DNA of 64,000 nt from Deltaproteobacteria bacterium (GTDB taxonomy: Bacteria > UBA10199 > DSSB01 > JACPFA01), in contig JACPFA010000024.1 in NCBI GenBank assembly GCA_016183235.1, forward strand, positions 1-64,000, in the 5' to 3' direction. The notes beneath the pieces were generated by a model, which saw nothing but the letters and a program-made list of their open reading frames with translations, had not been told where the DNA came from and made no database searches. Positions 7,945-41,334 of this stretch are shown piece by piece (position 1 is the first letter of the stretch; the number at the start of each line of letters is the position of its first letter). Made by a program: the position numbers and the translations under genes.

Positions 7945-8568
7945 TTACACGTTGCATCCAATGAGAATTTCGGCTTCGGTTAAATTAGCAACAATGACGT
8001 CATCGAATGAACAGTTTAACCATACCACGCCATCCAGAGCTAGAGTAATGCTCAAGTCAATGGTTCCATCATTATTTTCAGCCAAAGACCCACTCATCAA
8101 ATGTACCCCTGTTGAAAAAGTCGCTTCAAACTGAAAACTTACATCGTTTCCAGAATTATCAAAGGTAAGAAATCCATCGCTTGAAAAAGTAACAGTGGCA
8201 TTTGTCTCGGAGGCAGAAAGATCCTGATCCCAACTATGGGTTACCAAGGTCCCCTGTTCGGATACCGTATAGGTGCCAGTTCCCGTATAAGTGCCATTGT
8301 CTGAAGTAACGGAACAATTACTAAGGGTAACTTGACTCCCCTGAACAGCCATTTCACCACCCCCAGGGCAAGTAATAGGGAAAGAAAGCGTCTTATTCGA
8401 TTCAACAACAGAGCCCAATGCCCCCCAAGCTGCGGCTGACCACGAAATAAAAGTCACGACATCGTCGGCTGCGGTTCGGGCCAGTTCTCCTGAGGGATTA
8501 CCAGAACCACATCGAATTATCGACAAGCTTAAAACTAAAAATGTAATAACGATTCTTTTTTGCTTCAC
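7945..8568 (-). CDS. lipoprotein of unknown function in the ComQX-like operon
   Basis: A 207-residue predicted lipoprotein starting with GTG. The signal sequence ends SIIRCGSG, giving a lipobox-like cysteine at about residue 20. The mature part is rich in Thr/Ser/Gly/Asn and alternates like a beta-sandwich (for example NGTYTGTGTYTVSEQG). It holds four further cysteines, which could form disulfides. It begins 14 bases after the ComX-like stop codon on the same strand, so it is probably the third gene of that operon. It is not a kinase and does not resemble ComP. A surface or accessory role for the peptide system is only a guess from position. Confidence 0.65.
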   Translation of the reverse strand: MKQKRIVITFLVLSLSIIRCGSGNPSGELARTAADDVVTFISWSAAAWGALGSVVESNKTLSFPITCPGGGEMAVQGSQVTLSNCSVTSDNGTYTGTGTYTVSEQGTLVTHSWDQDLSASETNATVTFSSDGFLTFDNSGNDVSFQFEATFSTGVHLMSGSLAENNDGTIDLSITLALDGVVWLNCSFDDVIVANLTEAEILIGCNV

Positions 8569-8582
8569 AAGATTTTACAAAA

Positions 8583-8777
8583 TTACATACCTAAAAGCAC
8601 AGCTGAACGCTTTTGCCATTGCCCTAACTTGATTTTATGAATGGCCTTACATTCTTCGGGAGTAAGTTTTAAATTGAGTTGATTGATAACCGCGACAGGA
8701 TCTTTCTTAAAGCTCTGATACAATGTTGAATCATTGTTGAGCACATCGAGCAATTGTTGGATTGCGTTGTGATTCAT
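8583..8777 (-). CDS. ComX-like prenylated-peptide precursor (candidate)
   Basis: A 64-residue peptide. The first 50 residues form an amphipathic leader (LLDVLNNDSTLYQSFKKDP, then LKLTPEECKAI). Its pattern, L-x-x-DP-x-x-V-x-x-x-L-x-L-T-x-E-E, is shared by ComX precursors and by several other RiPP leaders. The short tail GQWQKRSAVLLGM contains the only tryptophan (W54), the residue that ComQ prenylates in Bacillus ComX. The RBS AGGAG overlaps the last codons of the ComQ-like gene, whose stop is 4 bases before this ATG. That implies translational coupling and matches the comQ-comX gene order. Alternative reading: an unrelated RiPP leader. No ComP/ComA pair is adjacent. Confidence 0.55.
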   Translation of the reverse strand: MNHNAIQQLLDVLNNDSTLYQSFKKDPVAVINQLNLKLTPEECKAIHKIKLGQWQKRSAVLLGM

Positions 8778-8781
8778 GATT

Positions 8782-9735
8782 TTACTCCTGTAAAGAAATC
8801 TTATTAATTAACTTTTCCAAAGATCGTTGAACTTTGCGCCCAAACTTTAGCCCATTCAAAATTTGACGGGCCTTCTCGCAATAAAACTCAATGAATATGG
8901 CAGTATGTTCTATGCTGCCCGATGAAGTCAAATGCTTTTTGATTTTTGCACGCGCACCTTTAACGTGCCCAGCTCGTTCTAAGAGTTTTAAGAAAGCAGC
9001 CTGATTTTTTATTCTCACAAGATGTAGCGCAATGGGTAAAGTTAAGGAACTATGTTTTAAATCTTTGCTTTGCGGAGCCCAAAAAAGATCAAAGACATCC
9101 GAGGAAATTTGCAAGGCCGTACCAAGAAATTTACCAAAGTCAGCACACTTTTGTTCGATTATAGGTGAAACCGAAGCTATTTTAGCCGCCAAGCGACAGA
9201 AGAGGCTAAGTTCTTCTCCACTCTTCTTCAAAACCATAGCTTCGATAGCATTGGGGTGAATCGTGTATGGGTTTGCCAAGGATAAATCTTGAAATTGGCC
9301 AGCAGCCATGACCAAAAGAGAATCTGAAATGGTTTTGAGTAGGGCAAAGTTTTTGGAAACAGATGCCAATTCTCTTAATACTAAGTTGGGCAATGCGGTT
9401 AGCAACACCGCTGATGCTAGGCTTAATTGTGCAGGAGAATATGGGCTTTCACTCTTATATAAATCTTGATCGTGCAAATCATCTAAGAGATCGCAACCTA
9501 GAAACAATAGAGTTGTCAAAACCCCAAGCCAATGGCTCTGAGCTATAGAGTTATTAAGCCCCAACGATAAATGATAGGGGATGTCAACACAGGGTGCCCA
9601 GTTTTGAAACTGTCTACTCTTTTTTAAATTGATGAGCCTATTTTTTAAAATCGTGCGCAGCAAATCGGATGGAAGATATTGATCGAACAAACGGTCTGTT
9701 TTTTTAAAGATAAGGTTAATATTTTTACCTTGCAT
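8782..9735 (-). CDS. ComQ-like isoprenyl transferase
   Basis: A trans-prenyltransferase-fold protein, 317 residues from the preferred ATG at 9735. The first Asp-rich motif is DDLHD (residues 85-89). GQFQDL and KKSGEELSLF follow. The second Asp-rich motif is degenerate, SDVFD (212-216), preceded by LGTALQIS and followed by KDL and TLPIAL. A second motif without the leading Asp resembles ComQ (NDxxD) more than chain-elongating synthases (DDxxD). The neighbouring 64-residue peptide with a C-terminal Trp supports peptide prenylation. The start at 9735 has AAAGAGA upstream. Upstream in-frame ATGs at 9756 and 9828 are possible, but 9828 would overlap the divergent gene. A plain polyprenyl diphosphate synthase remains the alternative. 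Confidence 0.7.
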   Translation of the reverse strand: MQGKNINLIFKKTDRLFDQYLPSDLLRTILKNRLINLKKSRQFQNWAPCVDIPYHLSLGLNNSIAQSHWLGVLTTLLFLGCDLLDDLHDQDLYKSESPYSPAQLSLASAVLLTALPNLVLRELASVSKNFALLKTISDSLLVMAAGQFQDLSLANPYTIHPNAIEAMVLKKSGEELSLFCRLAAKIASVSPIIEQKCADFGKFLGTALQISSDVFDLFWAPQSKDLKHSSLTLPIALHLVRIKNQAAFLKLLERAGHVKGARAKIKKHLTSSGSIEHTAIFIEFYCEKARQILNGLKFGRKVQRSLEKLINKISLQE

Positions 9736-11024: not shown

Positions 11025-12482
11025 ATGACTCTTAATAACAAAATAGGTTGGAAAAGAGAGATATTTCCTGAATCTTTTTTAAGCCAGTTTAAATGGAGTT
11101 TCTCCAATAAGAAAATGCATCGCCGATGGCTTGCTACGATTGGTGTTTTATTCTTGTTAGGACTTCTTGATTATATTCCGCTGCCTTTCCTCAAGACAAA
11201 CTTGAATTCGTTGCTTATTTCGCAAAATATTTTTGAACTTTTCAAAACCAATGGAATGGTTCAATCAATTTTTTTGACATCTTTAGGATTGGCACCTTTC
11301 TATTCAGCCTGTATCTTGACGCAATTTGTTTTTTTCTTAACTAAGAAAAAAAGAACGTGCCTTTTTGAGGGAGGTGCTTCTCGAACAACCTTGCTGCAAT
11401 GGACACTTTTTTTTACGATTCTATTAGTTACCTTACAAGCTATTCTTTTAACGAAATCTTTGCAGGATAATGGTCTGCTGCAATTAGGGATGACCCCTTA
11501 TTTATTAGGCACGTTGTCTCTTATGATAGGCATTTTTTTACGACTCTTTGGAGCACTCATGGTTACACGCTATGGCATTGGCCATGGTTTTGGGCTTCTT
11601 TTCATATTAGATTTTATCCAAAAACTTATTGTTGATATGAGACCATTTTTTCAAATTGATCAGCTTTGGACTTTAATAAGTCTTATTCCATTGATACTAA
11701 TCATCTGGGTTTTATGGGTAATAACAACACTCAAAAAAGAAATAACCCTTTCTTCCCATGATTCTAAAAACAATATTTCTCTACCCTTCCGACTTTCTTG
11801 TTTAGGCAATGAACCTCTTTATTGGGCCATTGCTTTAATGTTTCTACCAGCGACTCTTTATCATTTTTTTTCCAGTCCTCTTTTGAATGAATTGGCTTCT
11901 ATGATATTGACAGGGTGGATGGGATCTTTTCTGGCACTCACTCTTATTTCTATCTTTGGATTTATTTACTTCACATTGCTTTTCAGACCAGATCGAATTA
12001 TTTCCCTTTTAAAAAAACATCAGTTTATACACAGCGAAGAAAATAATACGCTACTCAGAAGAGATTTAAATCAGCAAATGAAGCCAATCGTTTTGGTTAT
12101 TATACTAATTCTGTTTTTAACTGCTAATACCTACTTTTTGGTAACCTATTTGGGAATCCCTGCAACGTTGGCCCAATTTTTGGGAGTAAATTTGCTAATC
12201 ACCACAGGTGTGTTTTTTGATCTAAGAAAACGGTTGGCATTTTTTAAAGAACAAGAAACGACGGCTTTTCGAGAATGGGTGTTAGCTTATGTGGCTAGTG
12301 ATGAAATAGAGGCTCAAGTCAAAAAACAATTTTTATCTAATCAGGGTATTACCACCCTCATCGAACCTCTTTGCTACACATGGGGTATGCCCATAAGAAC
12401 CATCATCGATGAATACCGGATTTATGTTCCATTATCTCAATCGAACCAAACCCGATCGGCTCTTTTATCACCAAATTCGTGA
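11025..12482 (+). CDS. divergent SecY paralogue with DUF2007-like C-terminal tail
   Basis: A 485-residue polytopic membrane protein that aligns by eye along most of SecY. Matches are YIPLP (SecY IPIPG), SLGLAPFYSACILTQ (LGIMPYISASIIIQ), RYGIGHGFGLLFI (RGIGNGISIIIF), LFRPDRIISLLKKHQFI (NPRETADNLKKSGAF) and a final TM NLLITTGVFFDL. About ten helices are expected. After the last helix, residues 408-485 read WVLAYVASDEIEAQVKKQF, a GI-x-T turn and IYVPLS. This resembles DUF2007, a small signal-transducing fold. It is not the housekeeping SecY: it is outside a ribosomal operon and key loops diverge. It probably forms a specialised translocon with an unknown client; the adjacent propeller and peptide genes are candidates. 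Confidence 0.75.
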   Translation: MTLNNKIGWKREIFPESFLSQFKWSFSNKKMHRRWLATIGVLFLLGLLDYIPLPFLKTNLNSLLISQNIFELFKTNGMVQSIFLTSLGLAPFYSACILTQFVFFLTKKKRTCLFEGGASRTTLLQWTLFFTILLVTLQAILLTKSLQDNGLLQLGMTPYLLGTLSLMIGIFLRLFGALMVTRYGIGHGFGLLFILDFIQKLIVDMRPFFQIDQLWTLISLIPLILIIWVLWVITTLKKEITLSSHDSKNNISLPFRLSCLGNEPLYWAIALMFLPATLYHFFSSPLLNELASMILTGWMGSFLALTLISIFGFIYFTLLFRPDRIISLLKKHQFIHSEENNTLLRRDLNQQMKPIVLVIILILFLTANTYFLVTYLGIPATLAQFLGVNLLITTGVFFDLRKRLAFFKEQETTAFREWVLAYVASDEIEAQVKKQFLSNQGITTLIEPLCYTWGMPIRTIIDEYRIYVPLSQSNQTRSALLSPNS

Positions 12483-29401: not shown

Positions 29402-29413
29402 TGATTTGCATCA
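29402..29413. promoter_or_regulatory. FNR/CRP-like dyad, site 1
   Basis: TGATTTGCATCA (TGAT-N4-ATCA, perfect dyad with flanking A/T) lies in the divergent gap, 25 bases before the 13-haem cytochrome start and 120 bases before the maturation operon start. The close spacing to the rightward gene fits repression there or activation leftward. Same pattern as three further sites in this locus. Confidence 0.55.
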
Positions 29414-29438
29414 TTTGTTTTTTTTAGGGATCTGCAAC

Positions 29439-32348
29439 ATGCTTAATAGCGCCATGCTACCCAGAAGAGGGCGTTTGCCCTATTGTCAATTTTTGCCGTT
29501 TTTGTTTTTGTTGATCCTTTTTATAGGCCCTTATGGTTGTGGTAGCGGTTCTAATGAACCCGCGGATTCTGACCCAACCGGAACGGGTGAGACCGAACCC
29601 GAGGGTGGTTCAACCGGCGCCGAAACGGGCACTTCGGGTAAAAAACCCTGGACCTATCACCCTGAAAATTGGGCCGACAAAACCGCTCACCCGACTGCCT
29701 TTGCCTCTGATCCAGAATCTTGCAAAACCTGTCATGGCAATAACTACGACAAAGTCATGCAAGGTAAAAGCTGTTACACTTGCCACAACTTTCCCCATAA
29801 CAATGTGTGGAAAGATATTCATGGCCAACAACTTAAACCCGAAGCCATCCAAGATTGTCAGAAATGTCACGTATCTAGTAATAATGTGGCCCTTGAAGGC
29901 ACACCCCAATCTTGTAACAGTTGTCACGACAAACTGAGTTGCCTTGATTGTCACGATCAAGCTAAAGCCGGGCGTCGCAAGATTGTAGGCCCAGGCGGTG
30001 ATTTTTCTCTTGGCCAACATCATGCCAGTGGAGAGGTCAATCAAGAAACTTGCCTCACTTGTCATTATATGAACGACCACTGGTCAGGGGTGGTAAAACT
30101 TAAAGACCCCGATGCAGGCGTTGGCATGGTTTATAATTTCAACCCTCAAGACCCTGAAAGTGTTGAGGCTTTCTGTGTCAACTGCCATGACCAAGACGGT
30201 GCCACCGCCCACGGTGGATTAACCCCCTTTAACGATGGCAAAACGGTGCCTAACATTAAGGGTGTAGAAGGTAGCCTGTGGGCTGATTCCGCTCACAACC
30301 AAATTAATTATCAAGCCAATAGCAACAAACCCTTGTCGTGTTTAGGCGACGGCATCAAAACCGGGTGTCACAGCAATGGTCACGGCTCTGATATTGAAAA
30401 GATGTTGAGCGTGGCCGGGCCCATCAACAACTTGTGCGATCAATGCCACACTGATGAAAAAGTTTTGAACCAAGCCTTATCTGGAAATGAACTGGCCAAC
30501 AACATCCAACAGGCCTTTAGTTTAGAAGGCGATACGGCAAGCATGCACAATTTAGGGACCCAGTTTACCATCAACGCAGGGGACCCCAACGAGAAAACCT
30601 TTACCCTGCAATGTACCACCTGCCACAACCCACACGTGGTCACGGGGAAATATTGGGATGCCGAAGCCGGCAAATCTCCCATCACACGACCTGATTTAGC
30701 AAGCGATCCAACCGAAAATCCCCGCGCCATGGGCGACACCCTTTGGGGCGTGAGCAATGACCAAAAAATGAGTAGTTACGCAGGGGTAGCGCTCGCTTCA
30801 TCGTTCAATCAAGCGGGGAATTTTCAAGATGCCGCTGGCGGCCCTGGCAATCAGTTGCCCGACTATGTCACTTTTTGCACCGATTGCCACGCGGAGCCAG
30901 GTCCCTCACCTTTTGGGCTAAATGATGGCCCTGGATGGGACGATTCGAAAAAAAGTTGGGATAGCGACCCCCATGGGCGTTACCCAGCCAACTTACCTGC
31001 CTCTAAATGCCCTAACGACCCGGCCTGCGGTGATGCAACGGAGGGTTGGCCCAAAACGCCGTTGGGCAAGGGTTTTATGCAACGGCTGCTTCCACCCTAC
31101 GATCAAGGCAAAAGAATAGCCGGTTTTAATTACGTGCTCTCGTGCACCGATTGTCACGAGGCCCATGGCTCTGTTAATAAAAACTTGATTCGTTCCAACC
31201 TTAATGGCACCTCTACTCCAGATTCAAAATGGAATAACCTTTGCCTGACTTGCCATAAAGTAGACCAGTACATGATCAGCATGTCAGGAATTGGTCAGCA
31301 TTGTGAGAGCTGTCACGGTTACGGCCAAAACCCACCGCAGGCTTATATGCCGGGCTCCATCCATGGAATGGAGAAAAATAAAAATGGGGATATTAACAAC
31401 CCCAATAACACCACGCTGATTTTTAATTCTGAACTCGTCGCCTATTTGCGCTTTGATCGAGTTAATTCAAATAATCCGAATCTCAATCTCTATGCCTTGG
31501 AAGATTCAGGACATTACCATCAAAATGCCCGCGGCTTTGACCTCAATTCACCCACCGATGATAACACCACCCATGTGGATGTGAATTTTGGCCACCTCCA
31601 TGTTTTAAGCCAAATCACTCAGCAATGCGTGGCGCTGGGGGCTTTGGAAGATAAAAATGCCTATGGTTGCAGTGTTAACCTCGATGGTCAAAATGATTAT
31701 TTGGAATTAGGTGTAACTCATAGTGTTTGGCCACCCTCGGTGTTTGGGCCTCATCAATTTTTTGAAATGAAAAACAATGCCTCGGTGATGGCTTGGGTTT
31801 TTCCCAATGTTGCCCCGATTCAAAACTTTACCATCCTCTCCAATGCCAGTGAAGACCCTACTGTTAATTATAGCCTCTACCTAATCCCTGATGGAGAGGC
31901 GATGCGAGTTGTGTTTAAAGTAGCAGTTGGCAACAATACCTGGCGCGGGGCCTGCAGCAATGTCGCCATCCCGGCTAATGGCTGGTCGCACGTAGGTGCT
32001 ACCTTTGATGGCGACGCTGTCCAAAAAATAAAGATCTATATTAATGGGGTGCAAAGTACGGCTGCCGATCCTAATGTCTGTGGCTTGTTGCAACCCAACG
32101 CTCAAGAAACGCAAATCCAGGCTGGCCAAGATGAAGCCACCTGTGTGCCTTTTACCGTTGGGGCAAGCTCCAATGAACAACCCTGCATTCAAGAATGGCC
32201 ACCACCGCCTATGGGTGCCTTTAACTGGAACACCGGCAGTAATTTCTTTAATGGTAGGATCGACGAAGTCAAAGTTTACAATACAACCCAAGAAGATTTT
32301 CAAAGTTTAATGGCTCCGCCCTTGCCACCGCCTTGGTTCCCCAATTGA
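29439..32348 (+). CDS. 13-haem cytochrome c lipoprotein with LamG domain
   Basis: A 969-residue protein from the ATG at 29439, chosen for its AGGGA RBS 8 bases upstream. The signal peptide ends at GPYGCGSGS, probably a lipobox. The region to about residue 640 contains 13 CxxCH motifs (CKTCH, CYTCH, CQKCH, CNSCH, CLDCH, CLTCH, CVNCH, CDQCH, CTTCH, CTDCH twice, CLTCH, CESCH). A CLGDGIKTGCH segment could be a non-standard site. Residues about 665-965 form a LamG/concanavalin-like domain (YLRFD, NLDGQNDYLELG, NASVMAWVFP, GRIDEVKVYN). Expected at the cell surface, where the LamG part may bind glycans or minerals. First gene of the electron-transfer locus. Confidence 0.88.
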   Translation: MLNSAMLPRRGRLPYCQFLPFLFLLILFIGPYGCGSGSNEPADSDPTGTGETEPEGGSTGAETGTSGKKPWTYHPENWADKTAHPTAFASDPESCKTCHGNNYDKVMQGKSCYTCHNFPHNNVWKDIHGQQLKPEAIQDCQKCHVSSNNVALEGTPQSCNSCHDKLSCLDCHDQAKAGRRKIVGPGGDFSLGQHHASGEVNQETCLTCHYMNDHWSGVVKLKDPDAGVGMVYNFNPQDPESVEAFCVNCHDQDGATAHGGLTPFNDGKTVPNIKGVEGSLWADSAHNQINYQANSNKPLSCLGDGIKTGCHSNGHGSDIEKMLSVAGPINNLCDQCHTDEKVLNQALSGNELANNIQQAFSLEGDTASMHNLGTQFTINAGDPNEKTFTLQCTTCHNPHVVTGKYWDAEAGKSPITRPDLASDPTENPRAMGDTLWGVSNDQKMSSYAGVALASSFNQAGNFQDAAGGPGNQLPDYVTFCTDCHAEPGPSPFGLNDGPGWDDSKKSWDSDPHGRYPANLPASKCPNDPACGDATEGWPKTPLGKGFMQRLLPPYDQGKRIAGFNYVLSCTDCHEAHGSVNKNLIRSNLNGTSTPDSKWNNLCLTCHKVDQYMISMSGIGQHCESCHGYGQNPPQAYMPGSIHGMEKNKNGDINNPNNTTLIFNSELVAYLRFDRVNSNNPNLNLYALEDSGHYHQNARGFDLNSPTDDNTTHVDVNFGHLHVLSQITQQCVALGALEDKNAYGCSVNLDGQNDYLELGVTHSVWPPSVFGPHQFFEMKNNASVMAWVFPNVAPIQNFTILSNASEDPTVNYSLYLIPDGEAMRVVFKVAVGNNTWRGACSNVAIPANGWSHVGATFDGDAVQKIKIYINGVQSTAADPNVCGLLQPNAQETQIQAGQDEATCVPFTVGASSNEQPCIQEWPPPPMGAFNWNTGSNFFNGRIDEVKVYNTTQEDFQSLMAPPLPPPWFPN

Positions 32349-32360
32349 TATCATCATTGA

Positions 32361-32372
32361 TGATCTCAATCA
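32361..32372. promoter_or_regulatory. FNR/CRP-like dyad, site 2
   Basis: TGATCTCAATCA lies in the 124-base gap before the monohaem cytochrome gene. Its centre is 61.5 bases before the start point predicted from the TCTAAT box at 32416, the spacing of a class I activator site. Confidence 0.6.
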
Positions 32373-32393
32373 TATAAACACATGATTTGTTTG

Positions 32394-32421
32394 TTTGCCT
32401 TCTGGCTTCGTTGGATCTAAT
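32394..32421 (+). promoter_or_regulatory. predicted promoter of the monohaem cytochrome gene
   Basis: A -10-like TCTAAT at 32416-32421 (5 of 6 to TATAAT) has a poor -35 (TTTGCC, 32394-32399), as expected if an activator bound at 32361-32372 is needed. Confidence 0.45.
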
Positions 32422-32472
32422 GTGGGCACCGCTTAGTTAAGAATAATCTTATTTATCAAATGGAGGATTGCG

Positions 32473-32838
32473 ATGAGAAATCATAAATCAAAACCAGTCA
32501 TGCTCATGAGCCTACTGGCTTTGTTCTCTTTTTTACTCAGTAGTTCTGTTTATGCGGGTGCTAAAGACATTTTTGTTAAACAAAAATGCAATAAGTGCCA
32601 CGAATGGAAAGCTCAAGGGGTTGAGAAATTACCTGCTGAACCAGACGCCCCACCCCCCGACCCCAAGTTTAAACCTGACCTCTCCAAGTTGTCAGACAAA
32701 GTAACGGGCGACAAAAAAGAATACCTAAAAAAGTGGTTGAATAAAGAAGTTCAACGCGATGGCAAAGACCACAAGAAACGTTTTGCCGGCACTCCAGAAG
32801 AACTTGAAACGCTGGTGAGTGCACTAGCCGCACAATAA
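32473..32838 (+). CDS. monohaem cytochrome c
   Basis: A 121-residue exported cytochrome. The signal peptide ends LSSSVYAGA. The only haem site is CNKCH (about residues 36-40). The sequence after it is Pro/Lys-rich, with a conserved-looking FAGTPEELETLVSAL end typical of small class I-like cytochromes; a Met ligand is not obvious. A GGAGG RBS precedes the ATG. It is followed directly by an intrinsic terminator, so it can be made in excess over the downstream membrane genes. Likely a soluble periplasmic carrier between the NrfD modules and the multihaem proteins. Confidence 0.82.
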   Translation: MRNHKSKPVMLMSLLALFSFLLSSSVYAGAKDIFVKQKCNKCHEWKAQGVEKLPAEPDAPPPDPKFKPDLSKLSDKVTGDKKEYLKKWLNKEVQRDGKDHKKRFAGTPEELETLVSALAAQ

Positions 32839-32852
32839 GCGAAAATATTCAG

Positions 32853-32889
32853 AAGCTAGGCAGGATGATCAAGCCTGCCTAGCTTTTTT
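32853..32889 (+). terminator. intrinsic terminator after monohaem cytochrome
   Basis: A perfect 12-base stem AAGCTAGGCAGG / CCTGCCTAGCTT with a 9-base loop is followed by a T run. It sits 14 bases after the cytochrome stop and 19 bases before the nrfD-like start. Confidence 0.85.
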
Positions 32890-32908
32890 ATTTTGAGAAT
32901 CGTGGACC

Positions 32909-34165
32909 ATGCCCACCTATTTTTTGTTTTGGAAAGATTTAATCAAACAAGTCATCTTCGGCCCCAAACTTTATTATGCCTGGCTTGGGTTTTTATCGAT
33001 TTTCATTGTCATTGGGATTGCAGGCTATATTCAACAATTTCAGCATGGCCTTATTGTCACCAACATGACCGATCAAGTTTCTTGGGGTGCCTACATCGCC
33101 AATTTTACCTACATCGTAGGTTTGGCCGCAGCCGCCGTCATGCTGGTCATCCCAGCTCATATTTATAAATTTAAATGCATCAAAGAAATCGTGCTGATTG
33201 GTGAGCTCTTGGCCGTTGCCTCCATTATTATGGCCATGTTGTTTGTAATGGTTGATATGGGCCGACCCGATCGCCTTTGGCACCTCATCCCCGGTTTAGG
33301 CCGGATGAACTGGCCCATGTCGATGCTCGCTTGGGACGTCTTGGTGCTCAATGGATATTTGCTTTTGAATTTGCATATTCCCGGCTACGAACTTTACAAA
33401 GACTATAAAGGTGAACCTCCTTCAGAGGCTTATCACAAACCTTTTATTTTCATTTCTATTTTCTGGGCCATTAGTATTCATACCGTCACCGCGTTCTTAT
33501 ACCAAGGCTTAGGGGGTAGACCGCATTGGAACTCCGCGGTGATTGCCCCACGATTTTTGGCCTCTGCCTTTGCCGTAGGTCCCTGTTTTATTCTTTTGAC
33601 CTTACAAGTCGTCGAAAAATTTAGCCGCTTTCACGTGGAAAAAGAGGCTTATCATATTTTAAAAAGAATTATCGCGGTGGCGATGATCATCAATTTGTTC
33701 TTACTCATGTCTGAAGTCTTCAAAGAATTCTACACCGATTCAGGGCATAGCGCTTCGGCCAAATATTTATTTTTGGGGCTGCACGAAAACCACTTACTAG
33801 TTCCTTTCATTTGGACGGCTATTGGTTTGAATATTTTTTCCACCCTAACTTTCGCGATCCAAAAATTAGGGAGGAACCAAATCATCATTAATGTTGCCGC
33901 CGTGGCGGCCATTGTGGGGGTTTGGATCGAAAAGGGAATGGGGTTGATTGTCCCTGCCTTTATTCCTTCTCCCTTGGGCGATGTTGTGGAATACACCCCA
34001 TCTCTGGTCGAAATTCAGGTGTGTGCCGGCATTTGGGCCATTGGGCTTTTCCTGCTGACGATTTTTCTTAAAGCCGCCATCCCCATTCACACCGGCGAAT
34101 TAAGATTGCAACGCGAAGAATCCTACCCCGGAGAATTCTCAGATAAGCCCTGGGAAAGACTCTGA
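32909..34165 (+). CDS. nrfD: NrfD-like quinone-interacting membrane subunit (first copy)
   Basis: A 418-residue polytopic protein with about ten helices, of the NrfD/PsrC family. It matches the second copy at 35901 along its length (both have GYIQQ, HGLIVTN, DQVSWGAYI, VVDMGRPDRLWHL, GLGGRPHWN and IWIEKGMGLIVP or VWIEKGMGLIVP). NrfD proteins take electrons from or give them to quinone and pass them to a periplasmic ferredoxin. It begins right after the terminator with no space for its own strong promoter, so expression probably depends on read-through. Confidence 0.87.
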   Translation: MPTYFLFWKDLIKQVIFGPKLYYAWLGFLSIFIVIGIAGYIQQFQHGLIVTNMTDQVSWGAYIANFTYIVGLAAAAVMLVIPAHIYKFKCIKEIVLIGELLAVASIIMAMLFVMVDMGRPDRLWHLIPGLGRMNWPMSMLAWDVLVLNGYLLLNLHIPGYELYKDYKGEPPSEAYHKPFIFISIFWAISIHTVTAFLYQGLGGRPHWNSAVIAPRFLASAFAVGPCFILLTLQVVEKFSRFHVEKEAYHILKRIIAVAMIINLFLLMSEVFKEFYTDSGHSASAKYLFLGLHENHLLVPFIWTAIGLNIFSTLTFAIQKLGRNQIIINVAAVAAIVGVWIEKGMGLIVPAFIPSPLGDVVEYTPSLVEIQVCAGIWAIGLFLLTIFLKAAIPIHTGELRLQREESYPGEFSDKPWERL

Positions 34166-34173
34166 AAATTGGC

Positions 34174-34185
34174 TGATCTTAATCA
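34174..34185. promoter_or_regulatory. FNR/CRP-like dyad, site 3
   Basis: TGATCTTAATCA lies in the 81-base gap before the tetrahaem cytochrome gene, centred 67 bases before its ATG. Confidence 0.55.
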
Positions 34186-34246
34186 TATGAGTGGCTGAGC
34201 ATACCCATTGAGCTAAAACCCCATTGAGCTTAATTTAAAAGAAGCT

Positions 34247-34849
34247 ATGAAACTCAACTATCGAAAACTAACGGGCTTGGCCATGGGCTTAGCTTTTATA
34301 GTTTCAACCTACCAACCGCTGTGGGCCGAGCCCCCAACCCCTGAATCAACCGAAAGCGCCCCTGAAAGTCTTCCGAGTTTTCCCGTCATCCCACGCATCC
34401 CTAAACTTAACATGTACCCTTGCACCGACTGTCATATGGGAGACAAAGATTACAACAATCAAGAAAGAGAATTAAAAGAAGAACACATTGAAATGGCCGC
34501 CCATTTCAAAAATGGCGATAAAGACCAACGTTGGTGTCACACCTGTCATCACGAAAAAGACTATCTTCATTTAACCGCACAAAACGGCCAGATCGTAACT
34601 TTTAACGAAGCTTATGTGGTTTGTGGCCAATGCCATGGCACAATTTTACGCGACTGGAAAAAGAACATCCATGGAAGAAGGGTTGGTAAATGGGTTAGCC
34701 CGGCCGAGGCCCAGGCCACTAGCTGTACCGAATGCCACAATTCTCACGGGCCCAAATTTAAAGCCTTAAAACCTATGCCACCCCCTGTACTGCCGAGAGG
34801 GAAAAAGGCCCCGAAGGAACATAAGGTAGAACATCAAGCAGGGCATTAG
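34247..34849 (+). CDS. tetrahaem cytochrome c
   Basis: A 200-residue exported protein: signal peptide to about residue 27 (PLWAEPP), a Pro/Glu-rich spacer, then four CxxCH motifs (CTDCH, CHTCH, CGQCH, CTECH). Extra histidines nearby (CHHEKD, HNSHG) could be the distal ligands. The tail is Pro/Lys-rich. It resembles the small cytochromes paired with NrfD/ferredoxin modules in Cbc-type menaquinol oxidoreductases. It is 8 bases before the ferredoxin gene, so the two are one unit. Confidence 0.85.
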   Translation: MKLNYRKLTGLAMGLAFIVSTYQPLWAEPPTPESTESAPESLPSFPVIPRIPKLNMYPCTDCHMGDKDYNNQERELKEEHIEMAAHFKNGDKDQRWCHTCHHEKDYLHLTAQNGQIVTFNEAYVVCGQCHGTILRDWKKNIHGRRVGKWVSPAEAQATSCTECHNSHGPKFKALKPMPPPVLPRGKKAPKEHKVEHQAGH

Positions 34850-34857
34850 GAGCTTTT

Positions 34858-35799
34858 ATGATGGATGAAAAAAAAGAAAATAGAAGTTCAGAGCTTTTAG
34901 CAAGGGCCCTAAATCAAGAAGTGCCAAGACGTTCTTTTCTTAAAGGTCTTGCCGTAGGAACGGCCCTGGCAACGGTTGCCCCCAGCAAAACAGCAGAGGC
35001 CTTTTCGCTAAGTGATTTTTTCAAAAAACATTATAAAGAATTATCGCCCCAAGAAAAAACCGCCATGCTGGCTCGCATCGAGGCCGAAACCAAAAAACGT
35101 TACGGCGTGGATGTAAAAGTTGAAGACCCTCCACCGATGAATGGCGTTGAGTTTGTTTATTGCCTCAATCTTTCTAAATGTATCGGTTGCCGAAAATGTG
35201 TGTATGCCTGCGTTAAAGAAAACAACCAATCCCGGGATCCGCAAATTCAATATATTAAGGTGCTGGAAATGCCCAAGGGCTCACTCGATGTGCATGAAGG
35301 CAACATGTATTACGATCATGCAGAAGTCCCGCAAAAAGACAAATTTTATATGCCTGTGCAGTGCCACCAATGTAAGCATCCGCCCTGCGTCAAGGTGTGC
35401 CCGGTAGAAGCCACCTGGAAAGAACCCGACGGCATTGTGGTGATCGACTACGATTGGTGCATTGGTTGCCGTTATTGTGAGGCCGCTTGCCCCTACGAGG
35501 CTCGCCGGTTCAATTTTACGGATCCCAAAATTCCACCCGAAGAAATCAACCCCAATCAAGGTTATCTATCAAACCGTATTAGGCCACGCGGTGTCATGGA
35601 AAAATGCACCTTCTGCCTACACCGCACCCGCAAAGGCTTATACCCAGCTTGTTTGGAGGTATGCCCCACCGGTTCTCGAAAATTTGGAAATATCTTAGAC
35701 CCCAACAGCGAAGTGCGAGCGGTGATTCAACACAAAAGAATTTTTGTTTTAAAAGAAGAATTAAACACCATGCCACGATTCTTATACTTCTTTGATTAA
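34858..35799 (+). CDS. Tat-exported 4x[4Fe-4S] ferredoxin (HybA/NrfC/PsrB type)
   Basis: A 313-residue periplasmic electron-transfer protein. The Tat signal is RRSFLKGLAVG (about 26-36). Four cysteine groups follow: CIGCRKCVYAC, CHQCKHPPCVKVCP, CIGCRYCEAACP and CTFCLHRTRKGLYPACLEVC, shortened in the last case. This is the classical 16-cysteine arrangement. It would link the NrfD subunits to cytochromes. It lies between the two NrfD copies; the second is separated by a palindromic repeat at 35804. Confidence 0.9.
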   Translation: MMDEKKENRSSELLARALNQEVPRRSFLKGLAVGTALATVAPSKTAEAFSLSDFFKKHYKELSPQEKTAMLARIEAETKKRYGVDVKVEDPPPMNGVEFVYCLNLSKCIGCRKCVYACVKENNQSRDPQIQYIKVLEMPKGSLDVHEGNMYYDHAEVPQKDKFYMPVQCHQCKHPPCVKVCPVEATWKEPDGIVVIDYDWCIGCRYCEAACPYEARRFNFTDPKIPPEEINPNQGYLSNRIRPRGVMEKCTFCLHRTRKGLYPACLEVCPTGSRKFGNILDPNSEVRAVIQHKRIFVLKEELNTMPRFLYFFD

Positions 35800-35803
35800 T
35801 GAA

Positions 35804-35881
35804 TGGATGCCGGGTCCCCGGATCAAAGTCCAGGGCAGGCTTGCCCGGCATGACGTCATCCCGGGCCTGACCCGGGATCCA
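35804..35881. repeat. intergenic palindromic repeat (78 bases)
   Basis: Two hairpins in tandem: GATGCCGGG/CCCGGCATGAC and GTCATCCCGGG/CCCGGGATCCA. The ends are inverted copies with one mismatch (TGGATGCCGGG, CCCGGGATCCA). It resembles GC-rich intergenic REP-like repeats. Located between the ferredoxin and second NrfD genes. Confidence 0.75.
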
Positions 35882-35900
35882 TATATGACTAGGAAATCTT

Positions 35901-37118
35901 ATGCGTACCTATCTTATTTTTTGGAAAGCCATGCTTCGCCAGTCTGTCGTGGGTTCTAGGGGTTATTATATTTGGCTGCTGATTTTGCTCTTTTTTATTG
36001 CCCTGGGTGTTGTTGGCTATATCCAACAATTGCGGCATGGTCTTATTGTCACAAATTTAAGTGATCAGGTCTCATGGGGCGCCTATATCTCTAACTTTGC
36101 TTTTGTGGTTGGCATAGCCGCCGCTGCGGTCATGTTGGTCATTCCGGCTTATGTTTACAAATTAAAATCGGTTAAAAAAATTGTGTTGGTGGGTGAGCTC
36201 TTGGCGGTGGCAGCTATTATTGTGGCCCTCTTATTTGTCGTTGTTGATATGGGCCGCCCCGATCGCCTCTGGCACCTCCTCCCCATTTGGGGTCGGGTGA
36301 ACTGGCCACAATCGATGTTGGGCTGGGATGTCATCGTGCTCAACGGCTATTTACTTTTAAATTTTCACATCCCCGCCTACGAACTTTACAAAAAATATAC
36401 AGGCCATCCCCCTTCCGATCTTTATTACAAACCGTTTATTGTCATTTCCATTTTCTGGGCGGTGTTTTTACTTTTGGTCGAGGCCTTTTTGTACGTAGGT
36501 TTGGGAGGAAGGCCTCACTGGAACGCAGCGATCCTCGCACCCCGATTTTTTACGGCGGCTTTTTCAGTAGGGCCTGCCTTTATTATTTTAACTTTGCAGC
36601 TGCTTGATAAATACACCCATTTAGATGTGGAACAAGAAGTTTATCTTGTGCTTAAAAGAATCGTCGCCGTGGCCCTACTTTTCCACCTCATTTTGCTCGT
36701 AGCAGAAGTTTTCAAAGAATTTTATACCGATTCAACCCACGGCGAATCAGCTCGTTATCTTTATTTTGGTTTACATGGCTACCATGGGCTTGTTCCCTTC
36801 ATCTGGACTGCCATTGCTTTAAATGTTTTTGCCACCTTAAGTTTTGCCATCCCCAAATTCAGTCGCAACATGGTACTTATTAACATCGCTGCGGTAGCGG
36901 CCTTCATTGGTATTTGGATTGAAAAAGGCATGGGGCTTATTGTGCCTGGTTTTATTCCCACTCCCTTAGGCGACATTGTTGAATACTTCCCTTCATGGAT
37001 TGAACTACAAATTTGTGTTGGCATTTGGGCCACGGGGCTATTACTCTTCACCCTCTTCCTCAAAGCTGCCATCCCCATTGAAACAGGGGCATTGCGATTG
37101 AAAAACTTAAAAAGCTAA
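35901..37118 (+). CDS. nrfD: NrfD-like quinone-interacting membrane subunit (second copy)
   Basis: A 405-residue polytopic NrfD/PsrC family protein, clearly paralogous to the first copy. It has the same order of GYIQQLRHGLIVTN, DQVSWGAYISNF, VVVDMGRPDRLWHLLP and FIPTPLGDIVEYFP. Differences cluster in the loops and in the helix around residue 190, where it has FLLLVEAFL. With one ferredoxin gene between the two copies, the pair may form a heterodimeric membrane part, as ActC/ActF do in alternative complex III, or two alternative modules. It follows the repeat element by 19 bases. Confidence 0.87.
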   Translation: MRTYLIFWKAMLRQSVVGSRGYYIWLLILLFFIALGVVGYIQQLRHGLIVTNLSDQVSWGAYISNFAFVVGIAAAAVMLVIPAYVYKLKSVKKIVLVGELLAVAAIIVALLFVVVDMGRPDRLWHLLPIWGRVNWPQSMLGWDVIVLNGYLLLNFHIPAYELYKKYTGHPPSDLYYKPFIVISIFWAVFLLLVEAFLYVGLGGRPHWNAAILAPRFFTAAFSVGPAFIILTLQLLDKYTHLDVEQEVYLVLKRIVAVALLFHLILLVAEVFKEFYTDSTHGESARYLYFGLHGYHGLVPFIWTAIALNVFATLSFAIPKFSRNMVLINIAAVAAFIGIWIEKGMGLIVPGFIPTPLGDIVEYFPSWIELQICVGIWATGLLLFTLFLKAAIPIETGALRLKNLKS

Positions 37119-37123
37119 ACACC

Positions 37124-37135
37124 TGATGAAGATCA
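37124..37135. promoter_or_regulatory. FNR/CRP-like dyad, site 4
   Basis: TGATGAAGATCA lies in the 115-base gap before the porin gene. A -10-like GAGAAT at 37162-37167 places the start point about 43 bases from its centre, close to class II activator spacing. Confidence 0.58.
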
Positions 37136-37233
37136 TGAGTTTTTATTGTTTAAATCATTTAGAGAATTTTTAGTTGTGTGGTATTGAATAAGTGTAGTTA
37201 CTCAAGTCAATCCCAAAATGCAAAGAAAGAAGC

Positions 37234-38589
37234 ATGCGTTTGTTGATAAAGCTTAAAAACTTTCTCTCTCGTAGCCTTGCCCTTCTCCTCTTGATAAGCG
37301 TGGTCAGTTTGGCTAAGGCCGAAGAAAAAAAGAAACATCTCGTTTCCGGTTCTCTCACCAATAAGTACAAATTTCGAGCCACCAACGGTTTTTCCGATAA
37401 TGACTTAGAATCTATCTTAACTTTAAATGTTGGCAACCCTCGCGCCAATCGCTTCTCTTTCTCCGCCCAAGGTGGTGGTATTTTTGATCTCGATGGTAAA
37501 AAAACCGATTCTTATTTTTCGGATATCTACAATAGCTTTCCCGATGCGGCCGTTGGCCGGCTTTATTACGCCTATCTTAATATCAACAAACTTGGCCCCA
37601 TCGATCATGTGCGGGTTGGCCGCCAGCGTTTGTTTCTGTTAGAATCTCATTATTTCGATGGCCTCTCCATTGAAACGGTTCCCTTGGCGGGTTTTGTACT
37701 CACCGTCTTTGGCGGTACCCCCGTTCACCTCTATGAAAATCAAATCGGCATGGATTGGGGTGATTGGATGGCCGGTGCCTCTTTACAATGGAACCCCATT
37801 AGCAAACTGCGCCTGCGTTTTGATTACACCCATTTAAAAGATCAAACCTCTGGCTTTCGCGTGAGTCAAGGTGATTTAGAAGATGATCTGTTTGGAATCT
37901 CGTTTTGGGCCAACCTTACCAAAAACATCGAACTCTATGGCCGTTTTACCTCTTTCTCTGATGAAGTCCGCGATGCTGAAGCCGCTCTGAACTTTCAATT
38001 CCCCGAGCAAGACTTAACCGTTCGCCTCAATTATTTTAGACTGCTCAAAGGCTACGACATTCGCGTTACCGATTGGGACGCCTTTGGCATTGCCGGTTCC
38101 TATGTCCCCTACAATCAAGCTGGCCTAAGTGTCACCAAGGGCTTGGGGGAAAAGTTTAGCGTCGATGGCGGGTTTGTGCTGCGCAAGCTCGACAACAATC
38201 AAACCGCTTCTGCCTTTAACCACGGCTACCTCAGGGGCTTTGTGTCACTCGGCAGTCAAGACTTTCTTGCCAAAGGTCTTGAAATGAACGCCACCTTTGA
38301 TTATTACCACGGCATCGATAACACCTTGAAAAACGACTACTACGGTGGCTCTTTCGGCATTAGCCAACAACTTTTGAAAAAACGTTTGAAGCTGGGCGCT
38401 GGCACGGCCTTTTATCTCTATCGCTACAATCTCTTGACTGGCAACGAATCTGACAATGTGCAAACCTATTTTGCCAATGTCGAAGCCAAGATCTTGAAAA
38501 ATCTCAAGGCCAAGGCCGCTTACGAATTTGAAGACAATGACTTTGATAACTTTCACGAAATGAAGTTGAGTTTAACATGGGATTTCTAA
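37234..38589 (+). CDS. outer-membrane beta-barrel porin of a porin-cytochrome conduit
   Basis: A 451-residue protein with a signal peptide (LLISVVSLAKAEE). The body is strand-rich with alternating aromatic residues, for example RLRFDYTHLKD, LYGRFTSF and VRLNYFRLLKGYD, and it ends with the C-terminal aromatic pattern SLTWDF of outer-membrane proteins. It overlaps the 9-haem cytochrome gene by 13 bases. The porin plus periplasmic cytochrome plus outer-membrane cytochrome order matches porin-cytochrome conduits (MtrCAB, Geobacter Omb/Oma/Omc) for electron export. No sequence identity to those was tested. Confidence 0.8.
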   Translation: MRLLIKLKNFLSRSLALLLLISVVSLAKAEEKKKHLVSGSLTNKYKFRATNGFSDNDLESILTLNVGNPRANRFSFSAQGGGIFDLDGKKTDSYFSDIYNSFPDAAVGRLYYAYLNINKLGPIDHVRVGRQRLFLLESHYFDGLSIETVPLAGFVLTVFGGTPVHLYENQIGMDWGDWMAGASLQWNPISKLRLRFDYTHLKDQTSGFRVSQGDLEDDLFGISFWANLTKNIELYGRFTSFSDEVRDAEAALNFQFPEQDLTVRLNYFRLLKGYDIRVTDWDAFGIAGSYVPYNQAGLSVTKGLGEKFSVDGGFVLRKLDNNQTASAFNHGYLRGFVSLGSQDFLAKGLEMNATFDYYHGIDNTLKNDYYGGSFGISQQLLKKRLKLGAGTAFYLYRYNLLTGNESDNVQTYFANVEAKILKNLKAKAAYEFEDNDFDNFHEMKLSLTWDF

Positions 38590-39293
38590 AACTTAGAGTC
38601 ATCTTACTACTTTTAATCTCGGTCACTTTTTTGATGGCCAATAAGAATTGTAAGCGTTCTATCACCTGGGGTGACACCAATAAAAATTTCGTTTCTAAAT
38701 GGGAAGACGAACATAAAGACGTTAATTCCAACACCTATTGCGGTGAATGCCACGATGATGCTCGTTCTTGGAAAAAATCCCCTAATGTGCATGACAGCCA
38801 CGGCATTGCTTGGGAGCGCGAACACGGTAAATTCTCGCAGGCCAAATATGGCTTTCAACAACAAAATGTCTGTTCGCTCTGCCATACCGATTCTTCTTGC
38901 ACCTCCTGTCATATGCAAGAACCACCGCAAAACCACACCATGTTCTGGAAACAACGCGGCCATGGCTTGGCAGTCGGCCTCGATCGCAACAAATGCGCCA
39001 CCTGCCACTACAGTGCCGATTTTTGTGAACGTTGCCACTCAGAAACCGAACCCAGGGATCACAATGCCCTTTGGGGTTCTAGGCAAAACAATCACTGCTT
39101 GAGCTGCCATGTGCCCGTGTCTTCTTCTGGCGCTCAAAAATGTGCCGTCTGTCATCAAAGCACGCCCTCGCATAGCTCGGCGCCAGCTCAACCTAACAAT
39201 GCTATTCATGTGTCTGGGGTTAATTGCCGCACGTGTCATAACCCAGCACCTCACGCTGATAATGGAGACTCTTGTGAAACCTGTCATCAATAA
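38577..39293 (+). CDS. 9-haem periplasmic cytochrome c
   Basis: A 238-residue protein with a signal peptide to about residue 21 (ISVTFLMANKN). Nine CxxCH motifs are visible: CGECH, CSLCH, CTSCH, CATCH, CERCH, CLSCH, CAVCH, CRTCH, CETCH. That is one haem per about 24 residues, a density suited to a wire-like protein. Start overlaps the porin stop by 13 bases, so the two are co-translated. Its expected place is plugged into the barrel from the periplasmic side. Confidence 0.88.
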   Translation: MGFLKLRVILLLLISVTFLMANKNCKRSITWGDTNKNFVSKWEDEHKDVNSNTYCGECHDDARSWKKSPNVHDSHGIAWEREHGKFSQAKYGFQQQNVCSLCHTDSSCTSCHMQEPPQNHTMFWKQRGHGLAVGLDRNKCATCHYSADFCERCHSETEPRDHNALWGSRQNNHCLSCHVPVSSSGAQKCAVCHQSTPSHSSAPAQPNNAIHVSGVNCRTCHNPAPHADNGDSCETCHQ

Positions 39294-39309
39294 CTTAAAG
39301 GGGAAAACC

Positions 39310-41334
39310 ATGAACGGTGGAACCTTCAATCTAAAAAGAATATCCGGCCTATTTATAACTTATGTATTTGTGGTGTTTCTAGCGGGTTGCGGCACAACCG
39401 CCACCACCCCACAAACCACCGGCATCTTGGGTACCGCAGAAAATACCGTGGGTGATCCAGTTGTGGGCGCTCTGGTTTGTTTGATCCCAGCGAGCGCAAT
39501 CAGCGAAATTGGCCTCGACATCGACGAATTTTCTCCAACGGCCACGGATGACGAACCCTTAGAAGACTTATCAAGCAATTGCACCACAGGCACCTATCAA
39601 ACCGCTACCACCGATTCGAACGGTGATTACAGCTTTGCTACGATCACAGAGGGAACTTATTTTATTTATTTAAAGCCCGCTGATACTGATACTGGGCATC
39701 TCCCAGGCGGTAGCCTCTGCCGAACCTCACGCTATTTAAGCAATACCGCGCTTGATCTTGATATTGAAGTATCCACCGTGCCTTCTTCTTCCGCAACTTA
39801 CGTTGGTTCTACCACCTGTCTTTCCTGCCACACCAACAAAGAAACCGTTAAACACACGGGGCATCAATTGGGCCTACGCAATCCCGGAGAAGATGGCGGA
39901 AACCAAGATAAAAGCACCTTTGAAACCGCTACGGGTATTACTAATTTCGATGCAGCTTTAGATAGATTTGAAGACGACACCATAGTCTATTTTTATGATT
40001 ACGATAGCACGCGTGGCTTTGACAAATTTAAAACCTCAGAGACCGATCCGGGCACCACTTGTACCTTGGGTGACTCCTCCGATACCACGGGTGTTTTCTT
40101 TACGGTCCGACTTTTTAAAGACGGCTCCACGTACAAGATGACCTTAACGAATGTGTGTAATCCTTCTGACACCAATTCTCCTGCCACTTATGATGTCGAT
40201 TTCAGCTATGGTGGGGGTGTTTATAAACAACGTTATTTTACCTTACTCACGGTGGGTGATAGCAATAATATTAGTGGTAGTAGTGGTTACCACGTCCTTC
40301 CCCTCCAATACCATCAAGAAGGCAGTGATTCTTATGGGCCACGCACTCGCAAGATTTGGCGTGATTACAATGCCTATTCCGGCTGGTATACTTTTAGCAC
40401 TCAACTTTTGAGAACCCCTGCCAATTCTAAATCCTTTGACAACAACTGTGCGGGTTGTCATTTCACCGGTTATACTTTGACCGGCAATAGCACGGATGGC
40501 TACATGGCAACGGCTGTCGCTGACACCAACGGTCATATGTGGTACGGCACTAAACAAGAAATCAACACCGGTTGCGAGGTTTGCCATGGCCCGGGTTCTG
40601 AACATGTGGCTGCAGGTGGTTCGATTGTCTCCCCAGGCTTTCTTACCCCCGAACGTGAAGTCATGATTTGTAATCGTTGTCATACCCGGCCCAAGGGCGT
40701 TGCGGGTACCGATGTGCCTGATGATGCAAGTGGTGGGCTTATGCTTCCCGGTCACACGCGGAGCGAATTTTTTTCGACCTACACCAACGGTCAATATGAT
40801 ACAAACTTAGGGAGTGATTTGTTGACCGATCGTGATCAACACTCCAACTCACATCATCAGCAAGGCACTGACTTTGTACGATCAACCCATTATAAGAATC
40901 GAACTCAATTACTTACCTGTTCGAGCTGTCATGATATGCATGGCACCGATTATGCCCGTGGCTTAATTGCTTCCCAAGATGACAATTCCATCTGCGCAAG
41001 TTGCCACAGCGATAAAACTTCTGACCTCACCGGCCACACCGGTGACGTGCTAGGGGTTTCAACCGATATGGGTGCCAGGTGTATCGATTGCCACATGAAT
41101 AAATACGCCAAGTCAGGGTCGGGTCGCCCGGGTAATGGCAATACCACCGGGCTCAGCGCTGGGTATTGGGAAAATGATATTACTTCCCACTTGTTTAAGG
41201 TGCCGTTAAAAAGTGTATCGAAGTCAGATGGAACTTTTCTCTTGCTCGGGGTAGCCCCCCTTAATGCGCCTCTGCCCATTCCCTTTACCGATAGTTGCGG
41301 CAGCTGCCACGACAGCGACCTTTCTGATAATTAA
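39310..41334 (+). CDS. 8-haem outer-membrane cytochrome c lipoprotein
   Basis: A 674-residue protein from the ATG at 39310, which has an AAAGGGG RBS and is followed by a lipoprotein signal (FVVFLAGCGTTATT). An in-frame opening from 39109 lies within the previous gene and is not used. Residues about 30-130 look like a carboxypeptidase-regulatory-like beta domain (TTDSNGDYSFATITEGTYFI). Eight CxxCH motifs follow: CLSCH, CAGCH, CEVCH, CNRCH, CSSCH, CASCH, CIDCH, CGSCH. GCEVCHGPGSEHV is typical of the cytochrome c554/OmcB-like group. Probable terminal surface cytochrome of the conduit. Confidence 0.87.
   Translation: MNGGTFNLKRISGLFITYVFVVFLAGCGTTATTPQTTGILGTAENTVGDPVVGALVCLIPASAISEIGLDIDEFSPTATDDEPLEDLSSNCTTGTYQTATTDSNGDYSFATITEGTYFIYLKPADTDTGHLPGGSLCRTSRYLSNTALDLDIEVSTVPSSSATYVGSTTCLSCHTNKETVKHTGHQLGLRNPGEDGGNQDKSTFETATGITNFDAALDRFEDDTIVYFYDYDSTRGFDKFKTSETDPGTTCTLGDSSDTTGVFFTVRLFKDGSTYKMTLTNVCNPSDTNSPATYDVDFSYGGGVYKQRYFTLLTVGDSNNISGSSGYHVLPLQYHQEGSDSYGPRTRKIWRDYNAYSGWYTFSTQLLRTPANSKSFDNNCAGCHFTGYTLTGNSTDGYMATAVADTNGHMWYGTKQEINTGCEVCHGPGSEHVAAGGSIVSPGFLTPEREVMICNRCHTRPKGVAGTDVPDDASGGLMLPGHTRSEFFSTYTNGQYDTNLGSDLLTDRDQHSNSHHQQGTDFVRSTHYKNRTQLLTCSSCHDMHGTDYARGLIASQDDNSICASCHSDKTSDLTGHTGDVLGVSTDMGARCIDCHMNKYAKSGSGRPGNGNTTGLSAGYWENDITSHLFKVPLKSVSKSDGTFLLLGVAPLNAPLPIPFTDSCGSCHDSDLSDN

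Follow-up and report, generated by a model that had tools for sequence, protein, structure and literature searches.

In Paenibacillus alvei, the NHLP precursor PalX is modified at its C-terminal Trp by PalQ, an enzyme resembling trans-isoprenyl diphosphate synthases (trans-IDS), which rejects residues other than Trp (PMC10853753). According to a review, Trp is the target of all characterised trans-IDS-like peptide prenyltransferases (PMC13290415). ChrPC, summarised there from Hubrich et al. 2024, likewise modifies a ribosomal peptide through a trans-IDS-like prenyltransferase domain; in the review's account, this domain forms a fusion with a terpene cyclase, and its target is an internal Trp. 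In Bacillus and relatives, comQ is followed by comX in a translationally close arrangement. NHLP-clan peptides also include the small protein Os1348 from Pseudomonas sp. Os17, which belongs to the NCBIfam family NF038399 and whose cluster is described with an acetyltransferase and a peptidase, a prenyltransferase not being mentioned (PMC7726476).

The locus analysed here lies in a 64,000-nucleotide stretch of a deltaproteobacterial contig (the window), and the first-pass annotation had described it as a ComQ/ComX-like pair outside Firmicutes. The enzyme–peptide pair is real and conserved outside Firmicutes, but this is less new than it appeared, because PalQ/PalX and ChrPC have already been published. 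By analogy, PalQ/PalX rather than ComQX is the best match. It shares a trans-IDS-like prenyltransferase adjoining an NHLP-type precursor, the isoprenoid-synthase fold and an intact first Asp-rich motif. However, PalX ends in the modified Trp, whereas the tails here are -LLGM or variable; PalQ, as far as its published description goes, has both Asp residues of the second Asp-rich motif (SARM), whereas the first is lost here; and the PalQ cluster includes a histidine kinase, whereas the partners here are a lipoprotein or a cNMP-PqqD-M50 protein (PMC10853753). The locus shares gene order and coupling with ComQ/ComX, but its enzyme occupies a separate branch, its peptide is unrelated to ComX, its Trp is not conserved and ComP/ComA are missing. 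Unlike in ChrPC, no cyclase is present. Since PalQ/PalX exemplifies an NHLP precursor paired with a trans-IDS-like enzyme, the general kind of system is already known. New are the branch itself, its hosts (uncultured groundwater Deltaproteobacteria and Elusimicrobia), the -GM tails, the cNMP-PqqD-M50 partner and the fact that the window's subgroup has no conserved Trp.

Locus layout and enzyme class

On the minus strand, the enzyme gene is followed after a 4-nt gap by a 64-aa peptide gene and, 14 nt further on, by a gene for a 207-aa lipoprotein. The features, read from the sequence and its ORFs, are as follows.

8782..9735, minus strand: putative peptide prenyltransferase of the ComQ/PalQ type, resembling trans-isoprenyl synthases; 317 aa when read from the ATG at 9735 (PF00348, motif losses, AF2 fold)
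9469..9492, minus strand: first Asp-rich motif DLLDDLHD (D113-D120, 348-aa numbering); D113, D116, D117 and D120 invariant in 15 homologues
9088..9111, minus strand: degenerate second Asp motif QISSDVFD (Q240-D247); S/T replaces the first Asp in all homologues
8785..8789, minus strand: AGGAG, the ribosome-binding site for the peptide gene, within the enzyme's final codons (CAG GAG TAA)
8784-8782, minus strand: enzyme stop TAA
8583..8777, minus strand: 64-aa NHLP/Os1348-clan precursor-like peptide (sole NF038399 match in the genome; profile jackknife E 1e-8)
8777-8775, minus strand: peptide ATG
8616..8618, minus strand: codon of the single Trp (W54) of the peptide, not conserved in the window's subgroup
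8586..8597, minus strand: codons of the peptide's C-terminal LLGM, a tail common to 5/5 group-A peptides
7945..8568, minus strand: predicted lipoprotein, 207 aa, third gene of the group-A cassette (the window and L040-L043), with linked homologues in L040-L043

Much of the first-pass description is borne out by this reading: the prenyltransferase-fold gene with its SDVFD motif, the peptide directly downstream with a ribosome-binding site in the final enzyme codons, the single Trp at position 54 and the comQ-comX-like gene order and coupling. Not included in that description were the lipoprotein, the peptide's assignment to the NHLP clan and its conserved -LLGM end. The longest enzyme ORF encodes 348 aa from an ATG at 9828, but 9735 is the likelier start because the longer form overlaps a divergent gene at 9782 and its first ~30 residues are modelled poorly by AF2. 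The lipoprotein homologues in L040-L043 are found with BLASTP E-values of 6e-33 to 9e-53. A Pfam scan assigned the lipoprotein to no family. A search of a defence-system library gave no match.

The enzyme matches PF00348 (polyprenyl_synt) with an E-value of 4e-14. It retains the fold and the first Asp-rich motif of canonical polyprenyl and farnesyl diphosphate synthases (IspA, IspB), but in an alignment with these and with ComQ it lacks the IPP-binding motifs GGKRxRP and RRG and has S/TDxxD in place of the canonical DDxxD, the first SARM Asp being gone. These losses are shared with ComQ, as are the GQ motif and an identical 6-residue deletion after the SARM. A side-by-side alignment with four ComQ sequences reveals the same ComQ-type pattern in the enzyme: an intact first motif, a degenerate second motif and lost IPP-binding motifs. 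The alignment with ComQ, represented by database plasmid records L093-L097 with the Acaryochloris enzyme L098 also used, is full length (290 columns, E 8e-21). In a maximum-likelihood tree that includes IspA/IspB-type synthases, ComQ and the new clade split from the canonical enzymes with a support of 91. Within this group, the new clade joins an orphan Priestia enzyme (support 99), ComQ joins the Acaryochloris enzyme (support 98), and the window enzyme lies outside the ComQ clade on a separate branch, a placement in which long-branch effects are possible. The AF2 model (pLDDT 88.8) has the all-alpha trans-IDS fold; its PDB fold matches are canonical synthases, and the Foldseek matches include Ord1, a free-Trp farnesyltransferase. 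The window genome carries two other synthases, both canonical. Alignment and tree together support the view that the enzyme is ComQ-like in kind and outside the ordinary polyprenyl synthases, as the first-pass annotation had supposed.

Plasmid sequences yielded a few relatives. A tblastn search with the window enzyme returned weak matches to polyprenyl synthases (23-29% identity), and a search with the L087 homologue returned one orphan ComQ-like enzyme without an NHLP peptide nearby, encoded by an unannotated gene on a Priestia megaterium megaplasmid (L116:5830-6837) and sister to the new clade. The Acaryochloris enzyme, which groups with ComQ, is encoded on a plasmid of this cyanobacterium (L098:2833-3780) and has no adjoining small peptide annotated. 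Record L095 (CP031730.1), a plasmid under the name Stenotrophomonas rhizophila, carries a cassette of ComQ, ComX and a kinase and is near-identical to the Lysinibacillus plasmid L096; the record is probably mislabelled or contaminated. No relatives in viral contigs were confirmed.

Two homologous enzymes have unusual ends. The L042 enzyme (L042:21-1100) terminates in RPMLFGM and the L043 enzyme (L043:8883-9896) in QPKLFGA, both resembling the ends of their partner peptides. Such an end could be a docking tag shared with the peptide, a pseudosubstrate or a site of self-modification. We looked for the tail in the active site of an AF2 model of the L042 enzyme and found it disordered (pLDDT ~30).

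The peptide family, its distribution and partner genes

The best matches of the window peptide are NF038399 (Os1348 family of the NHLP clan, E 9e-6) and TIGR04509. When NF038399 was run against the whole window genome, the peptide was the only match (E 7.5e-5), at 24-26 bits against a curated cut-off of 40. Eight peptides in five other genomes exceed that cut-off, and the family is continuous; 23 of the 27 homologous peptides match NF038399 (best 5e-19) and 21 match the Pfam family Frankia_peptide. A profile of sister-group peptides from other genomes, built without any group-A peptide, identified the window peptide as the sole significant hit among 1092 window ORFs (E 1.1e-8; next E 1.9). Because this profile and NF038399 each single it out, the peptide is a real gene and no chance ORF. 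Across all 46 genomes of the class, NF038399 matched in seven, and every match was an enzyme-linked peptide. The ComX family PF05952 was not matched in a Pfam scan, and HHalign against five ComX peptides gave a probability of 1.1%. By these profile comparisons, the peptide is not ComX but most likely a member of the NHLP/Os1348 clan, a clan of RiPP leaders; the ComX likeness proposed earlier is not supported.

Enzyme and peptide travel together. The enzyme profile matched 11 of the 46 class genomes, and three Elusimicrobia genomes among the 341 searched in the phylum; the peptide profile matched exactly the same 11 class genomes. The three Elusimicrobia genomes likewise have both enzyme and peptide. 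The probability of such 11/11 co-occurrence by bare coincidence is 7e-11, a figure to be read with the relatedness of the genomes in mind. In the loci read, the peptide adjoins the enzyme or sits within about 1 kb of it (in L090, the distance reaches about 2 kb). The search for the pair in related genomes suggested by the first-pass annotation thus found it. Several loci encode tandem peptides (four each in G018 (L045) and L088, three each in L087 and L089), and such copies with variable tails fit precursor diversification.

The cassettes fall into two groups on which tree and neighbouring genes agree; L048, with a truncated-looking enzyme and an RGM peptide, was left outside both. The lipoprotein gene is linked in group A. 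In group B, a gene with one or two cNMP-binding domains, a PqqD-like domain (its match just under the Pfam threshold) and an M50 protease is linked in 8/9 enzyme loci, the L087 copy being counted from L054, another record of that locus. The M50 membrane protease of the sister subgroup carries a fused RRE-like domain. Such peptide-linked fusions include L044:6978-8861, L046:10511-12517 and L092:7732-9075; in L092, the gene adjoins a peptide on a contig without the enzyme. MacB/FtsX-type ABC genes adjoin L044, L047, L049 and L089, and similar genes lie beside L088. The window operon has no M50/RRE gene and no dedicated exporter, and a search of the window genome for a homologue of the full cNMP-PqqD-M50 protein gave only cNMP-like partial matches.

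Proposed function and the question of the acceptor

Our best reading, to which we give a probability of roughly two in three, is that the locus represents a new branch of RiPP-type peptide-prenylation cassettes. Starting from the established pairing, enzyme class, leader family and partner genes, the proposed mechanism would run as follows. The peptide would be a precursor whose NHLP/Os1348-clan leader is folded and whose C-terminal tail is short and hydrophobic. The enzyme presumably derives from a trans-isoprenyl diphosphate synthase and has lost the binding of IPP as its second substrate. Its first Asp motif, which is intact, would bind an allylic diphosphate, and the enzyme would move the prenyl group onto the peptide, which may dock through its leader. 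In group B, the membrane M50 protease could bind the leader through its PqqD-like (RRE) domain and cut the membrane-anchored product, which the adjoining MacB/LolCDE-type transporters could export; in group A, the lipoprotein would take the third position instead.

Points against the cassette reading are the missing M50/RRE gene and dedicated exporter of the window operon, the sub-threshold PqqD match and the acceptor. The window's subgroup mostly lacks the residue used by all characterised enzymes of this kind: only one of the five group-A peptides has a Trp in its last 20 residues, and the closest relative, L041, has none there. Loss of the Trp beside homologues was among the outcomes that the first-pass annotation had itself named as refuting its reading. 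By comparison, an internal Trp is kept in 21/22 group-B/L048 peptides, 15-19 residues from the end. Given these counts, Trp prenylation is poorly supported for the window and possible in group B. None of the 27 peptides ends in Trp.

The tails differ accordingly between groups. All five group-A peptides end in [LF][LF]GM, and in the five group-A genomes they are the only convincing ORFs with this end. We rejected [LF][LF]GM as a general C-terminal tag; other pattern matches in these genomes sit on short or doubtful frames. Group-B peptides have a helical LSDEEL..R.SK segment followed by 1-5 variable residues, including GM, IP, Y, WLA, FFS, LP, M, GA, VA, LFV and AFG. We take this segment to resemble the end of NHLP/Nif11 leaders. 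The peptides as a whole share no conserved nucleophilic side chain, and the tails IP, LP, VA, GA, LFV and AFG have none.

Judging from these sequences, the acceptor in this branch is possibly not Trp. We tentatively suggest, well short of even odds, that the trans-IDS-like enzyme might prenylate the peptide at another site, for example the C-terminal end of the ...[LF][LF]GM tail. If true, this would break the Trp-only rule for characterised enzymes of the fold and provide a bacterial counterpart to the prenylation of proteins at their C-terminus, which in the sister group would be combined with M50/RRE processing at the membrane. Both a new acceptor residue and the processing of a prenylated peptide by bacteria could be tested directly on this branch.

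It is also possible, if doubtful, that the internal Trp, in the context [I/V/M/F][D/N]W, is prenylated in group B only, group A being modified elsewhere or having lost the modification. The near-complete retention of this Trp and the Trp specificity of the characterised enzymes agree with this. However, one L087 tandem copy has Leu in its place (VDL), the Trp, which comes before the conserved helix-like segment of the leader, may have a structural role, and group A is left unexplained.

An unlikely alternative is that a small isoprenoid is the product or the cyclisation substrate of the enzyme, while the peptide serves as regulator, chaperone or scaffold rather than acceptor. This would suit tails without a conserved nucleophile and the docking-tag look of the L042 and L043 enzyme ends, but the peptide belongs to a RiPP-type leader family, tandem copies with hypervariable ends suit substrates better, and group B has a linked RRE-like protease.

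We regard as improbable a true ComQX-type quorum-sensing pair, in which Trp54 would be prenylated and the modified peptide excised and secreted as a pheromone. The coupled gene order, the ComQ-like enzyme motifs, the position of the window Trp close to the C-terminus and the internal Trp of the sister group would all fit, but the peptide has an NHLP leader instead of ComX homology, four of five peptides in the window's subgroup have no Trp near the C-terminus, and no histidine kinase or response regulator was present among the neighbouring genes scanned; the Pfam scan of window genes gave no ComP or ComA, in line with the first-pass annotation. Finally, an ordinary polyprenyl diphosphate synthase beside an unrelated small ORF, which the Pfam and PDB fold matches might suggest, is already contradicted by the two canonical synthases of the genome, the lost IPP-binding motifs and the perfect co-occurrence with the peptide, and has next to no chance of being right.

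Apart from the cassette hypothesis, the window contains two other features worth recording. At 11025-12482 on the plus strand, it encodes a second SecY-family protein, which is highly divergent (PF00344, 78 bits versus 378 bits for the genome's main SecY, on C40). Ahead of it is a 412-aa protein whose N-terminus is signal-like; beside the related cassettes, no homologue was seen. At 29406-41331 lies a cluster of multihaem cytochrome and NrfD genes, with MtrC-like similarity that is suggestive of extracellular electron transfer.
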